In this document: piece after piece, positions 10,920-56,719 of the stretch
How positions within the stretch are numbered: the first letter of the stretch is position 1
Layout: each line of letters begins with the position of its first letter
Source: a virus
Direction: 5' to 3' (one strand)
Virus record (IMG/VR): IMGVR_UViG_3300028025_001269
Span: 1-56,719 of that record
DNA length: 56,719 bases
Made by a program: the position numbers and the translations under genes
The notes under the pieces: model-generated
The model's input: only the letters and a program-made list of their open reading frames with translations
What the model was told of the DNA's origin: nothing
Database searches by the model: none

Positions 10920-11114
10920 ATGCAAGTAGCAGGGTTTAAATCAGATGAGTATGAGATGAGCTTGCCCGAGATAGGTAAAGCACTTGGAATGTCTACGAGT
11001 AGGGTGTATGAACTACAGGTTAGTGCCATGTCTAAAGTGCGTATGTATTGTGAGATACATGGCATTGAGTTTGAGGATCTCATAGATTCGTTAAGTAAAA
11101 AGGATAAGCAATGA
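10920..11114 (+). CDS. sigma factor region 4-like helix-turn-helix protein
   Basis: 64 residues. Residues 11-42 (MSLPEIGKALGMSTSRVYEL then QVSAMSKVRMY) follow the pattern of sigma-70 region 4, with the EIGKxLGxSxxRVxxL core and the trailing helix with AxxKVR. There is no region 2, so alone it could not melt a promoter. It may replace or modulate region 4 of the host sigma factor, or act as a simple DNA-binding protein. It starts 9 bases after the recombinase and its TGA overlaps the next ATG. Confidence 0.65.
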   Translation: MQVAGFKSDEYEMSLPEIGKALGMSTSRVYELQVSAMSKVRMYCEIHGIEFEDLIDSLSKKDKQ

Positions 11115-15512: not shown

Positions 15513-16406
15513 ATGTCTAATATAACTCTCGCAGCAGGTGGTAACTTTGCACAGATGGCTGAAGCCATGGGCATGGCAGTTGATATTGCTAAGCCTAAGA
15601 AGCAAAGCAATCTAGCCCGATTAAAGTTGGATCACAAGGGCATCATGGGTGAAGAGGTTGTCGGTGGTAAGAAGAAGAAGGTAGAAGTAGTGTCAGCAGG
15701 TAGCTACGTACTTGATCGTCCTAACCTAGACCCAGTTTATGGTAATGATGTAACCATTCGTTTGTTTAACCAACGCTTTATGTATAAGAAATATATCCAA
15801 GGTTCAGGTGATGTTAAGTCTAAGTACGTAAAGACCATCATGGACAAAGACTTGAATGGTGACTTGCGGGATAACGATGGTGGCTTTAACTGTGGCAAAC
15901 CCTCCGGCTGGATCGAAGACTACAGTGCATTGCCAGCAGAGACAAAGGCTTTACTCAAGTCTATCAAGCGGGTACGTGTATTGTTTGGTGAGATTACAAT
16001 GAAGGACCCAGTCAACGCTAAAGGCGAAGCACTCGGTTTGATTGAGTCTATTCCTTTTATTTGGGAGATTGATAACCGTGATGCATTTAAAACTTTGGGT
16101 GCACCTATTGCACAGATGGCTAAGCAAAACCGCATCCTTCCACAACACCGCATCATCTTGGGTGCAGAAGAGCAGTCTCTCCCAACAGGGGCAACTTACT
16201 TCTTGCCTACAGCAGTACTCGATCTATCTAGCACCCTTGAGTTGACAGATGCAGACAGTACTTTGTTCGGTGACTTTAATGCTTGGGTTGATAACTACAA
16301 CGAGTACATCGTTAAGGAGTTCAACAAGTTAAGTCAACCAGCAGAAGCTAGTGCAGATGAACTTGCGATTGCCGAAGAGTTTGTTGACGTAGAAGTAGAA
16401 GCGTAA
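15513..16406 (+). CDS. putative single-stranded DNA-binding protein
   Basis: 297 residues. Not firmly recognised, but size, position between polymerase and exonuclease, strand-rich core (VTIRLFNQRFMYKKYI) and a strongly acidic C-terminal tail (ELAIAEEFVDVEVEA) fit a phage ssDNA-binding protein, whose acidic tail recruits partners. A basic patch lies near residues 50-60 (GGKKKKVEV). AAAGGAATAGACAC precedes the ATG. It could also be another recombination accessory protein. Confidence 0.45.
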   Translation: MSNITLAAGGNFAQMAEAMGMAVDIAKPKKQSNLARLKLDHKGIMGEEVVGGKKKKVEVVSAGSYVLDRPNLDPVYGNDVTIRLFNQRFMYKKYIQGSGDVKSKYVKTIMDKDLNGDLRDNDGGFNCGKPSGWIEDYSALPAETKALLKSIKRVRVLFGEITMKDPVNAKGEALGLIESIPFIWEIDNRDAFKTLGAPIAQMAKQNRILPQHRIILGAEEQSLPTGATYFLPTAVLDLSSTLELTDADSTLFGDFNAWVDNYNEYIVKEFNKLSQPAEASADELAIAEEFVDVEVEA

Positions 16407-18655: not shown

Positions 18656-19101
18656 ATGCACCAGTCCGTAAGCGATTCGATAGAGAACTATTTAATGAAA
18701 CAGATGGTACTGCTAGAGATTCCGCTAGGGTATACTGGACATCTTTGGGTCATACCGTTGAGGATCACCCCGATAGGTATGCTGTAGATCTTATTGTAGA
18801 CACAGGATCAGAGACATTCTATTGTGAGGTAGAGATTAAGAAGGTATGGACAGGTGCTGCGTTTAAGTACGATACCCTGCAGATACCTGAGCGTAAGGCT
18901 AAGTTTGCTAAGCTAGATAAGCCAGCATACTTTATGATCTTTAATAAAGAACGTAGTCATGCATTCATCTGCAGTCACACAGACCTGTTAGATTCCCCCA
19001 TAGTTGAGGTGCCTAACAAGTATGTGTATAAGGGAGAGATGTTCTTTCAAGTACCGATTACGAAGTTACAGCTAGTGGAGATTCCAAGTGGCAACCCGTA
19101 A
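18652..19101 (+). CDS. putative PD-(D/E)XK endonuclease-like protein
   Basis: 149 residues. The sequence DRYAVDLIVD followed by TFYCEVEIKKVW has D46 and E61-x-K63 in the order and spacing of a restriction-type PD-(D/E)XK core; upstream ARVYWTSLGHTV is the usual helix. The remainder (YFMIFNKERSHAFICS) resembles the closing strand. It may cut DNA or act as a nicking partner of endonuclease I. Substrate unknown. Overlaps neighbours on both sides. Confidence 0.55.
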   Translation: MNAPVRKRFDRELFNETDGTARDSARVYWTSLGHTVEDHPDRYAVDLIVDTGSETFYCEVEIKKVWTGAAFKYDTLQIPERKAKFAKLDKPAYFMIFNKERSHAFICSHTDLLDSPIVEVPNKYVYKGEMFFQVPITKLQLVEIPSGNP

Positions 19102-22357: not shown

Positions 22358-22431
22358 GCCCCTTTAGTTAAATGGTATAACACTTGATTTGTAATCATGG
22401 ATTGGCAGTTCGATTCTGTCAAGGGGCACCA
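22358..22431 (+). tRNA. tRNA-Thr (anticodon UGU)
   Basis: Folds as a complete cloverleaf: acceptor GCCCCTT/AAGGGGC, D-arm GTT/AAC around AAATGGTAT, anticodon stem CTTGA/TCATG (one U-U mismatch) with loop TTTGTAA, variable GATT, T-arm GGCAG/CTGTC with TTCGATT, discriminator A and encoded CCA. Anticodon UGU (22390-22392) reads ACA and related threonine codons. It is the only tRNA I find and would supplement the host for ACA-rich late genes. Confidence 0.9.
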
Positions 22432-43369: not shown

Positions 43370-43630
43370 ACGCTTAACTCAGTAGCAGAGCCTCTTCGAT
43401 TAGGTGCGTATAGCTTAGACTTCTAGATTATCTAAGATATACGGGCTAACTCTGTAGGGTAGTCTGGTGCCGTATTGTCTTTGCGTTTACTTAGTACTAC
43501 ATGGTTTTTGTCTATGGTAGATGGTTGGCTTAGCTAAAGCGGCATCTTAAGACGGATTAAGAAGGGTAAGTAAGCCGAAGCTTACCTATCCCTTTGTACT
43601 ACAGTTATAAACTTATTTCTACGTTTGTCA
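43370..43630 (-). promoter_or_regulatory. structured leader of the capsid gene
   Basis: Gene-free 301-base gap between scaffold and capsid genes. On the minus strand GTAAGC-UUCG-GCTTAC, extended by AAGGG/CCCTT (43562-43594), forms a C(UUCG)G tetraloop hairpin. GTATAGCTTAGA and TCTAAGATATAC (43408-43419, 43431-43442) pair at 11 of 12 positions around 11 bases. The region may hold a promoter, attenuator, or RNA processing/stabilising site that lets the capsid messenger exceed the scaffold messenger. Confidence 0.5.
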
Positions 43631-43634
43631 AGCT

Positions 43635-46817: not shown

Positions 46818-48269
46818 TTATTCTAGGGTCAATGACCATCCTTGATTACCATTATCTTTAACGGGATATCCGCTTTTTATTAAGGCATCTACAAGTAGAG
46901 GATTACTTTTATCGGATTCAAACTTAGAAATACCTGCAGACTTAGCCGTATTCATATTAGCAACCACTGCACTTAATAGTTTCTCAGGGGCATCATTACT
47001 AAACACTATAGGATCTACAACACCCGGCTGTTTTACAAATCCAATTACAACGGTATCGTTATGACGAGTAATAATAGCACGATTAGCTTTAACTAATCTA
47101 TTGATCTTTGAAAGATACTGCTGTGTTTTTTCTGGATCTTCCGGCTGAAAGTTATTTTTAATAATGGCAGCAGAAGTCAATCCTTCTGTAGGCATACTCT
47201 GCTGTTCGGGAGAAACTTGCATTTGCTGTGCCTTCATTCCCGATGCAGTCTGTTGAATAAAAGCTAACTGTTCTTCAGTTAAAGTTGGCACTTGAGCTTG
47301 TTGTGGCTGCTGATCTTGTGCAAGAGCTTCTTGTGTCTGTGCCATAGCTGCAGGGTCTGTTGCCATACCACCTACAGCCATCTCTACATCTTCGTCCTTC
47401 TCTTCACCCATCTCACCCATGATCTCATCGATCTGAGATTCAAACTCACCTGTGTCTTCTTCCGTAGCTTCGTCAGCATTAGACATCTGACCCATGTCTT
47501 CCATCTTGCCAAGACCTTCCTTAGCAGCTTGACGCATCATCATTAAACGCTCAAGCCCAATAAAGCGTACTACGTCAGCTGGGAATACAAACTCACCTTC
47601 ACTTAACTGTGCAGGGATATCATCTCGTACTTCTTCTTGCATTGCACCGACAGGTACGTCATTCCCACTAACGGGATCAACTGTACCGCCCTCCTGCATC
47701 ATGCCGCCTTCTTTAAGCATACGTTGTGTTTGTGATATCACTTGTCCACCTTTAGCCATGTTTGTTGGCTCTTCTTTTGAAAAGCTTTGACGTAGTTTTT
47801 CTACGAACTGAGTTTGCTCTTCTGTTGGAGTGCCAGCACTAGGATCTCCAGATAAAATTCTAGCAGCTATAGTTGCTTTTCTATCTGCCTCTGAAGCTTG
47901 TTTATATGTGTTACTATTTAAAAACTCTGCCTGTGACGGGGTCAATTCAAAATTAGGTGCTAAACTTTTATCTGTTCTCATTTTAATTCTAGCAGCTTCA
48001 TTTAGAGCAACAGCTTGTTTTTCTTGGTCTGTTAATTTAGAATAGGGATTTAAGATGACTCGATTGTCCTCCGTTGCCATCCCTGTTACATTAGGATTAT
48101 TTTTAAAATACTCTAACTCACTGTCTTCTGGCTTACGCATAAGACCCTTAACAACATCACCACCTGCCCGAAAAGTAGGCAGCTTAATCACGGGAGAAGT
48201 AGACTGTTGATGTCCAATAGGCTCAGAGCTATCCAGTGTTACTTGCTGTGGTTCTATCTTATTCAACAT
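46818..48269 (-). CDS. KGG-containing virion protein (483 aa)
   Basis: Contains RAGGDVVKGLMRKP, NMAKGGQVISQTQ, LKEGGMMQEGG and AVGGMATD, plus a block VPVGAMQEEVRDDIPAQLSE followed by GEFVFPADVVRFIGLE that I recall from long proteins of marine phages. Middle acidic (about 250-300), then Gln-rich, with a folded C-terminal domain (KINRLVKANRAIITRHND). Placed directly after the portal pair, which suggests a connector or internal protein. Confidence 0.6.
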   Translation of the reverse strand: MLNKIEPQQVTLDSSEPIGHQQSTSPVIKLPTFRAGGDVVKGLMRKPEDSELEYFKNNPNVTGMATEDNRVILNPYSKLTDQEKQAVALNEAARIKMRTDKSLAPNFELTPSQAEFLNSNTYKQASEADRKATIAARILSGDPSAGTPTEEQTQFVEKLRQSFSKEEPTNMAKGGQVISQTQRMLKEGGMMQEGGTVDPVSGNDVPVGAMQEEVRDDIPAQLSEGEFVFPADVVRFIGLERLMMMRQAAKEGLGKMEDMGQMSNADEATEEDTGEFESQIDEIMGEMGEEKDEDVEMAVGGMATDPAAMAQTQEALAQDQQPQQAQVPTLTEEQLAFIQQTASGMKAQQMQVSPEQQSMPTEGLTSAAIIKNNFQPEDPEKTQQYLSKINRLVKANRAIITRHNDTVVIGFVKQPGVVDPIVFSNDAPEKLLSAVVANMNTAKSAGISKFESDKSNPLLVDALIKSGYPVKDNGNQGWSLTLE

Positions 48270-55487: not shown

Positions 55488-55757
55488 TTACCACTTGACC
55501 TTGTCAGCCCAATACGCAGCTGATAACTTACCCTTTGAAATATTCTTAGCGTGTCTTGCCTTGAATGACTTCTGCCTTGCTTTCTCTGCTGGAGTCTTAG
55601 GGGCTGAACCAGCACCAGATACACCTTGCTGACCAAAGCGTATTAGCTTCTCTGTACTACCTTCTTTTGCTAACACAGCATGTGACTTAGTTGGATGACC
55701 GGGAGTCTTCTTTGGCTTATTGTAGCCACTGAACTCTTCTTTACCCTTCTTAATCAT
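55488..55757 (-). CDS. small basic conserved protein (89 aa)
   Basis: Contains PGHPTKSHAVLAKEGSTEKL then RFGQQGVSGAG, and FKARHAKNISKGKLSAAYWA; this pattern I recall in small virion-arm proteins of podoviruses. Basic throughout. It overlaps the first gene of the arm by 8 bases. A virion or DNA-binding role is likely. Confidence 0.66.
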   Translation of the reverse strand: MIKKGKEEFSGYNKPKKTPGHPTKSHAVLAKEGSTEKLIRFGQQGVSGAGSAPKTPAEKARQKSFKARHAKNISKGKLSAAYWADKVKW

Positions 55758-56067
55758 TTGCTAAGACTTTCTGTTTGTAAGGTACAAGTACTCTGGATTC
55801 ATTCCAGCCTTCTGCTCTCATAGCAGCTTCTACATCCTTGAGTTTGAACTTCATCCCTAAGTGATGCTCCATCGCTGCCTTCACAAAGAATACATCACTG
55901 TGGGGTACATGTATAGAATCTAGTCTGTTATTCCTAACTGCGGAATAGAAATCTTCCAGTACGTAGTCATCACGTAACTGGATCTTCTTTTTAATCCGTT
56001 TCGGTACAGCAAGAGGCTTAGTCCTCGAGCTATGCTCTGCGGATAGTTTTACTTGTTTTTCAGACAT
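55750..56067 (-). CDS. first gene of the virion arm (105 aa)
   Basis: ATG at 56067 is used (MSEKQVKLSAEHSSRTKPLA); a TTG two codons before is weaker. Basic first third (VPKRIKKKIQLRDDYVL), then helices (LEDFYSAVRNNRLDSI; FFVKAAMEHHLGMKFKLKD). Not recognised, but from the position it is the first product of the virion arm, so it could be a regulator or DNA-binding factor. Weak ribosome binding sequence (AAAGATTGAC). Confidence 0.62.
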   Translation of the reverse strand: MSEKQVKLSAEHSSRTKPLAVPKRIKKKIQLRDDYVLEDFYSAVRNNRLDSIHVPHSDVFFVKAAMEHHLGMKFKLKDVEAAMRAEGWNESRVLVPYKQKVLAND

Positions 56068-56106
56068 TGTCAATCTTTATTATTGTTCTTGTTTGACTGC
56101 ACCCTC

Positions 56107-56189: not shown

Positions 56190-56326
56190 TACAGTTAAAT
56201 GTAGTTCAAAGGTTACTCACTTAACTGTAACACTCTAAGTGTCTTTTAGTTTAACTATCTTTTACATTTAACTGTATTTACACTTAACTATGTTTTTATA
56301 GTTTAACTATATACAGTTAACTGTAT
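56190..56326. repeat. cluster of TTAACTGTA-like boxes with a 16-bp palindrome
   Basis: TTAACTGTA or its complement at 56190, 56221, 56268, 56312 and 56317, and the variant TTAACTAT at 56251, 56284 and 56303. The last two full boxes fuse into the perfect palindrome ATACAGTTAACTGTAT (56311-56326). Iteron-like density in the gene-free divergent region suggests a replication origin or a regulator-binding array. Confidence 0.7.
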
Positions 56327-56620
56327 CACTTTAAGTGAGTCTGTTAGACGTAGTTTTGCATTAATCTAAATACTTGTCAAGTACTATTTTTAATTGTGTA
56401 GTTAAACTGCCACACTCTTAACTACCACTCGTTATCTGCTAACACACTAGAACCTTCTCTAAGCTGTTACAGTTATCTGGTGCACCCTAGGTATCACCTT
56501 ATGTGAGATCACGTCTTGTAGGCACCTCTAATGCCCTGCAATTCAATTGTACCACATAACCTAAGTACTTTAAGTGATATGTTTTATGTGGAGTGGTTTA
56601 CGTGTAGCATTTAAAGTGAT
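56327..56620. repeat. second repeat set (TTTAA-GTGA) in the divergent region
   Basis: CACTTTAAGTG (56327-56337, a perfect 11-base palindrome), ACTTTAAGTGA (56567-56577) and ATTTAAAGTGAT (56609-56620) share a core. GTTCAAAGGT is repeated at 56204 and 56621. The rest of 56068-56719 holds no gene in either direction. Confidence 0.5.
56374..56402 (+). promoter_or_regulatory. possible sigma-70-like promoter facing the plus arm
   Basis: TTGTCA (56374-56379; 5 of 6) and TGTAGT (56397-56402; 4 of 6) with 17-base spacing point toward the right edge, that is toward the plus arm if the ends are joined. The weak second box makes this only a candidate. Confidence 0.25.
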
Positions 56621-56719
56621 GTTCAAAGGTGAGGTAGGGAATGTGTGAGGGGACATGTGTGTATATGTAAGTGTACACTAACCCTTTTAAATACCTGATC
56701 TGTGGGTATAGCCATATAC

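Follow-up and report, generated by a model that had tools for sequence, protein, structure and literature searches.

A dense cluster of short boxes lies between the two divergent gene arms of a phage genome, and the question it raises is whether it serves as an origin of replication or as a switch that controls transcription. Both possibilities had been put forward in a first-pass annotation, which described the cluster as iteron-like. The stretch of DNA analyzed here (the window) comprises positions 1 to 56,719 of the IMG/VR record IMGVR_UViG_3300028025_001269, which is classed as linear. A tblastn search with the virion-arm protein encoded at 46818-48269, together with the gene order (primase, DnaB, PolA, exonuclease, endonuclease and ribonucleotide reductase), placed the window with HMO-2011 and the CRP roseophages. 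Identity to HMO-2011 is 62% for PolA, 54% for the helicase and 62% for the ribonucleotide reductase, and the HMO-2011-type core set of primase, DnaB helicase, DNA polymerase A, terminase and portal is present in the HMO-2011 order; judged from these sequences, the phage belongs to the HMO-2011 type. According to a published study, phages of this type dominate and are widely distributed in the ocean, and their DNA polymerase is reported to contain a partial DnaJ domain with two CXXCXGXG motifs (PMC9038755). Members of the group that carry an integrase may be temperate, and the integration site of CRP-3 is a tRNA-Met gene (PMC9038755, PMC6918029). A prophage look-up for a host in the genome collection returned just five matches, all MAG contigs, which are probably binned phage contigs.

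The early arm starts at the left end and runs rightward as far as about 22.9 kb, and the virion arm runs leftward from 56073. A tRNA-Thr gene (TGT) at 22358-22431 adjoins the point at which the two arms converge, and it alone was matched in an Rfam search of the window. The contig is cut within the divergent region: the closest relative, the 58378-bp contig L003, has about 0.85 kb extra there, and this junction, absent from the window, is in L003 either non-coding or part of the first early gene.

A scan for 12- or 13-bp palindromes with the half-site (A/T)(C/T)A(G/C)TT revealed nine palindromes centered on TTAA or TTWAA at 56191-56338; 500 shuffles of this 160-bp stretch gave 0.66 +/- 0.78 and never more than 4, and the second-densest 160-bp bin of the window holds two. 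The density seen by the first reading, and its absence from the rest of the window, were thus borne out. Listed from the virion side upward, the boxes, to which no strand is assigned, are box 9 (56191-56202, ACAGTTAAATGT), box 8 (56217-56228, TCACTTAACTGT), box 7 (56230-56242, ACACTCTAAGTGT), box 6 (56246-56258, TTAGTTTAACTAT), box 5 (56264-56275, ACATTTAACTGT), box 4 (56280-56291, ACACTTAACTAT), box 3 (56298-56310, ATAGTTTAACTAT), box 2 (56313-56324, ACAGTTAACTGT) and box 1 (56326-56338, TCACTTTAAGTGA). Box 2 forms the core of the perfect 16-bp palindrome ATACAGTTAACTGTAT, found at 56311-56326 as had been claimed, and box 1, which lies closest to the promoter-like site P2 described below and reads TCACTTAAAGTGA on the minus strand, is the box most conserved among relatives. 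Centers of neighboring boxes lie 13.5-18.5 bp apart, with a single gap of 26 bp. The cluster had originally been described as repeats of a 9-mer ending at 56326. The 9-mer TTAACTGTA is indeed enriched, with seven copies in the window against 0.89 expected, five of them at 56190-56325, and three of the four copies of TTAACTAT fall inside the array. Since the palindrome scan gives nine boxes, well above the shuffles, the unit is a palindrome, of which these 9-mers are halves, rather than a 9-bp direct repeat, and the array reaches 12 bp further than proposed, to 56338.

The promoter-like site noted next to the array turned out to be one of two that bracket it. P2 (minus strand, 56351-56380) consists of TTGACA (56380-56375), 15 nt and GCAAAACTA; P3 (minus strand, 56044-56073) consists of TTGACA (56073-56068), which abuts the ATG of the first virion-arm gene (gene 1), 15 nt and GTAAAACTA, which lies inside the codons of gene 1. 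The two share the element TTGACA-N15-G(C/T)AAAACTA, and they alone in the window match the pattern TTGAC-N(14-18)-[GT][TCA][AT]AAACTA. Because their second hexamers are poor -10 boxes, neither site was recovered when the window was scanned for the plain sigma-70 consensus. The counterpart of P2 is TTGACA-N16-GTTAAACTA in close relatives and TTGACA-N17-TATAAT, with a perfect TATAAT, in HMO-2011. Directly after P2, at about the expected transcription start, lies a short inverted repeat, GTCT-AAC-AGAC (minus strand, 56339-56349); relative L013 carries CCGT-ACA-ACGG at the same place, with both arms altered together; the repeat may be a start-site operator or form a hairpin at the RNA 5' end. The order on the minus strand is therefore P2, inverted repeat, nine boxes, a leader of about 120 bp, and P3 overlapping the start of gene 1. 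Another promoter-like site, TTGACA-N16-TATAAC, occurs on the minus strand at 43603-43631, between virion-arm genes.

Codon usage in gene 1 points to a constraint on the DNA sequence of P3 itself, in its second half. The Val-Lys-Leu codons beneath it are GTA in 95%, AAA in 100% and CTA in 85% of cases, compared with expected values of 59, 58 and 29%. As other codons of gene 1 are biased too (for example AGT for Ser), this test is supportive but not decisive. In addition, three relatives (L169, L178 and L183) have the ATG moved by 3 nt, and their TTGACA still lies 15 nt from GTAAAACTA. We infer that P2 and P3 are both active as promoters.

This arrangement is kept across related phages. A gene-1 profile search supplied the best 80 of at least 560 confirmed candidates, and boxes were counted as CA[CG]TT-N0/1-AA[CG]TG with at most one mismatch in 48 dereplicated regions upstream of gene 1. 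Among these matches listed, we found 164 boxes versus 8.4 +/- 2.7 after shuffling, a density of 7.6/kb upstream of gene 1 versus 0.41/kb downstream. Most boxes lay 50-200 nt before the gene 1 start, and 39 of the 48 relatives listed had at least two; in seven of the 48, gene 1 was present with zero countable boxes, and some of these seven carry related palindromes. Where enough upstream sequence was available, a P2-like site was present in 34 of 43 relatives (0.38 in shuffles), with 98 boxes downstream of P2 and 15 upstream. To avoid conditioning on gene 1, all viral contigs were also scanned for P2 plus one box independently of the gene; a gene-1 homologue follows in 74 of the 75 contigs recovered, and P3 is present in 65 of these 74. 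The commonest center-to-center spacing was 13-14 bp, followed by 27-29 and 46-48 bp. Among close relatives, P2, gene 1 and most boxes are retained in L001-L012 and a diverged version is found in L013, and HMO-2011, CRP-1 and CRP-345 have a layout identical in plan to that of the window. CRP-2, CRP-207, CRP-603, CRP-9 and CRP-13 have different palindromes or none. Loci reached via the second virion-arm gene belong mostly to other phages, with no array there. These data provide strong evidence for a promoter-array-promoter architecture before gene 1, and the earlier suggestion of a switch region next to a promoter gains from both the position of the array and its conservation.

Repeated palindromes conserved in place next to a promoter-like site are what is seen at phage operators, and we consider it likely that the array serves as a set of operators controlling transcription, irrespective of which protein binds it. 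In the mechanism that we propose, the array would be a multi-copy operator for a phage-coded regulator of virion-arm transcription. Transcription from P2 would cross the array, enter gene 1 and thereby supply the regulator, which would load cooperatively on neighboring boxes. Since the boxes begin shortly after the P2 start, protein bound to them would shut P2 off, possibly favoring P3 or leaving it free for the virion genes. A transcript from P3 would begin inside gene 1, so that the downstream virion genes would be made and the complete gene-1 protein would not. This would perhaps amount to a handover from P2, with gene 1 made, to P3, with gene 1 bypassed. Protein binding to the boxes, the identity of the binder and the sign of control are what we infer here, and the mixture of 12- and 13-bp palindromes, unusual for a rigid dimer, counts against the operator reading, as do the poor second hexamers of P2 and P3, the seven relatives that have gene 1 with zero countable boxes, and the excess of TTAAA over TTTAA centers on the sense strand.

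Gene 1 (minus strand, 55750-56067) encodes 105 aa from the ATG or 107 aa from an upstream TTG; the ATG is preferred because the TTG of TTGACA is out of frame with gene 1 in L011. Its product gave at most weak matches in PHROGs and Pfam and so represents a conserved family without a home in either, and AlphaFold models from two alignments (pLDDT 67 and 63) yielded no PDB match and no usable fold. Gene 1 had been named as a possible source of the binder, and the array does stand upstream of it family-wide. As the first gene behind the array, with a small product of no confident fold, it ranks first among the candidates without a claim being made; that its product binds the array and regulates its own gene is conceivable, at somewhat less than even chances. 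More tentatively still, gene 1 might be the founding member of a novel family of small regulators that bind TTAA-centered arrays as adjacent units and pass transcription from P2 to the near-identical P3; with P3 housed in the regulator's own first codons, turning the virion genes on would turn the regulator off.

The other named candidate, the 64-aa protein encoded at 10920-11114, matches sigma-70 region 4 just over the Pfam cut-off. It has a weak relative in G003 only and none in the closest relative G001, whose array is nearly identical, and it was therefore rejected as the binder. A binder other than the gene-1 product, either another early protein of the phage or a host regulator, still accounts for an appreciable minority of our expectation for the operator. 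Examples would be the conserved 297-aa protein encoded at 15513, which, like the integrase and PolA, is present in 12 of 12 array-bearing genomes tested, or the protein encoded by the first early gene; the fact that gene 1 has no recognized DNA-binding fold points the same way. The coupling of array and gene 1 in 74 of 75 contigs, in a scan that was not conditioned on the gene, speaks against such a binder, as does the composition of the early arm: the early-arm genes with counterparts in both HMO-2011 and CRP-345 comprise those for replication and recombination, an L5 gp82-like protein and the 297-aa protein, with none of the small helix-turn-helix proteins among them. As for the host, a pattern scan of the window found no CtrA site (TTAA-N7-TTAA), and a CtrA-regulated promoter was discarded. 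The occurrence of the integrase in all 12 array-bearing genomes tested would also fit arm-type sites of a tyrosine integrase (attP), a reading to which we give very little credence: the integrase gene lies about 10 kb from the array, 74 of 75 arrays precede gene 1, and CRP-2, CRP-207 and CRP-603 have the integrase without typical boxes, on which ground the integrase was also dropped as a binder.

Two further readings dispense with a transcriptional operator. The boxes could act in RNA: folded into small hairpins with UUAA or UUAAA loops within the 5' leader, they would be targets for a factor acting in antitermination or translation. The array does lie on the downstream side of P2, the arms vary in concert around an invariant TTAA core, and one orientation, CACTTAAATG, prevails by 29 to 7. 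Yet boxes are found in both orientations (37 sense-strand centers TTAAA versus 13 TTTAA), a central AT step replaces TTAA in some boxes, and sense transcripts do not exceed their antisense counterparts in stability (mean z -1.50 versus -2.14 in 45 leaders). The presence of both orientations and the lack of special structure in the transcript favor recognition of double-stranded DNA, with caution owing to the TTAAA/TTTAA orientation bias, and we regard the RNA reading as unlikely. Slightly lower still we place the iterons of a replication origin. The repeats do occupy an AT-rich intergenic region, and the skew analysis suggested earlier placed the GC-skew minimum there, although the extremes coincide with changes in gene direction. 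The label of iterons does not suit boxes that are palindromic and irregularly spaced (centers 13.5-18.5 and 26 bp) rather than constant direct repeats. No Rep gene was identified among the genes searched, and the sole DnaA-box match in the window (TTWTNCACA) is at 19023, with none in the divergent region. Since, moreover, the array lies inside the presumed P2 transcript, between two promoter-like sites, an origin at the array is unlikely, and another conserved element nearby is a better candidate. This second family-wide element (56650-56719, with CCTGATCTGTG at 56694-56704) has the form of a G-rich stretch followed by TATATACACANAAATACACAGATYAGG..GTTAACCACA, and the window contig ends inside it. 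Among the matches listed, this single-copy element (ACACAGATYAGG with its flanks) was present in 41 of 48 relatives, usually 250-650 nt ahead of gene 1; one of the 41 is a weak match next to the start codon, and L142 and L173 have TTATCCACA at this place. The ACACAGATYAGG element is a better candidate than the array for an origin or for packaging.

An operator between promoters has parallels in known systems. In the early/late switch of phage phi29, the protein p4 binds between promoters, repressing one of them while permitting another. The likeness lies in a proposed regulator bound between promoters, whereas in the window the two promoter-like sites point in the same direction, the boxes number up to nine, and for the binder there are only candidates. 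Lambda-type operators are CACC...GGTG palindromes that serve as repressor sites in a divergent control region; the boxes of the window share the palindromic form and the location but are TTAA-cored and number up to nine, and no CI/Cro-like gene was identified in the window. Plasmid iterons are likewise short repeats clustered in an AT-rich intergenic region, in contrast to which the boxes here are palindromic, irregularly spaced and without a Rep gene. The heptad arrays (WATCACW) of the pSM19035 omega repressor/ParB system consist of contiguous half-sites of mixed orientation over promoters, bound cooperatively by small dimers (PMC9499535). The sequence TATCACTTAAAGTGATA of some relatives contains two such heptads, but most boxes of the window (ACAGTTAACTGT, ATAGTTTAACTAT) do not fit WATCACW and do not form contiguous heptads, and the likeness is one of DNA sites.

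The promoter-array-promoter module thus looks like an undescribed control switch for late genes and not a replication origin. It offers a compact, directly testable candidate for late-gene control in HMO-2011-type phages and, if the handover governed by gene 1 is right, an entire group of abundant aquatic phages would use it as their late switch; in integrase-bearing members, the module is also a candidate for lysogeny control. We found no account of transcription control in the HMO-2011 group in the open-access literature, an absence that is not proof of novelty, and the word promoter does not appear in the open-access literature examined on this group and its neighbors.

Two elements were observed on the early side of the divergent region, outside the window. 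At 3968-4097 of L003, four AAACACCRAAGGTGAAA palindromes with a spacing of about 30, 53 and 30 form an array that is kept in several close relatives and that we take to resemble lambda-type operators. At 3663-3760 of L003, and also in L004 and L012, a long stem-loop adjoins the start of the first early gene. As the alignment of the early leaders is badly framed, covariation there was read by eye, and compensatory changes are apparent in the stem (GTGAA/TTCAC, GGGAA/TTCCC and GAGAA/TTCTC).
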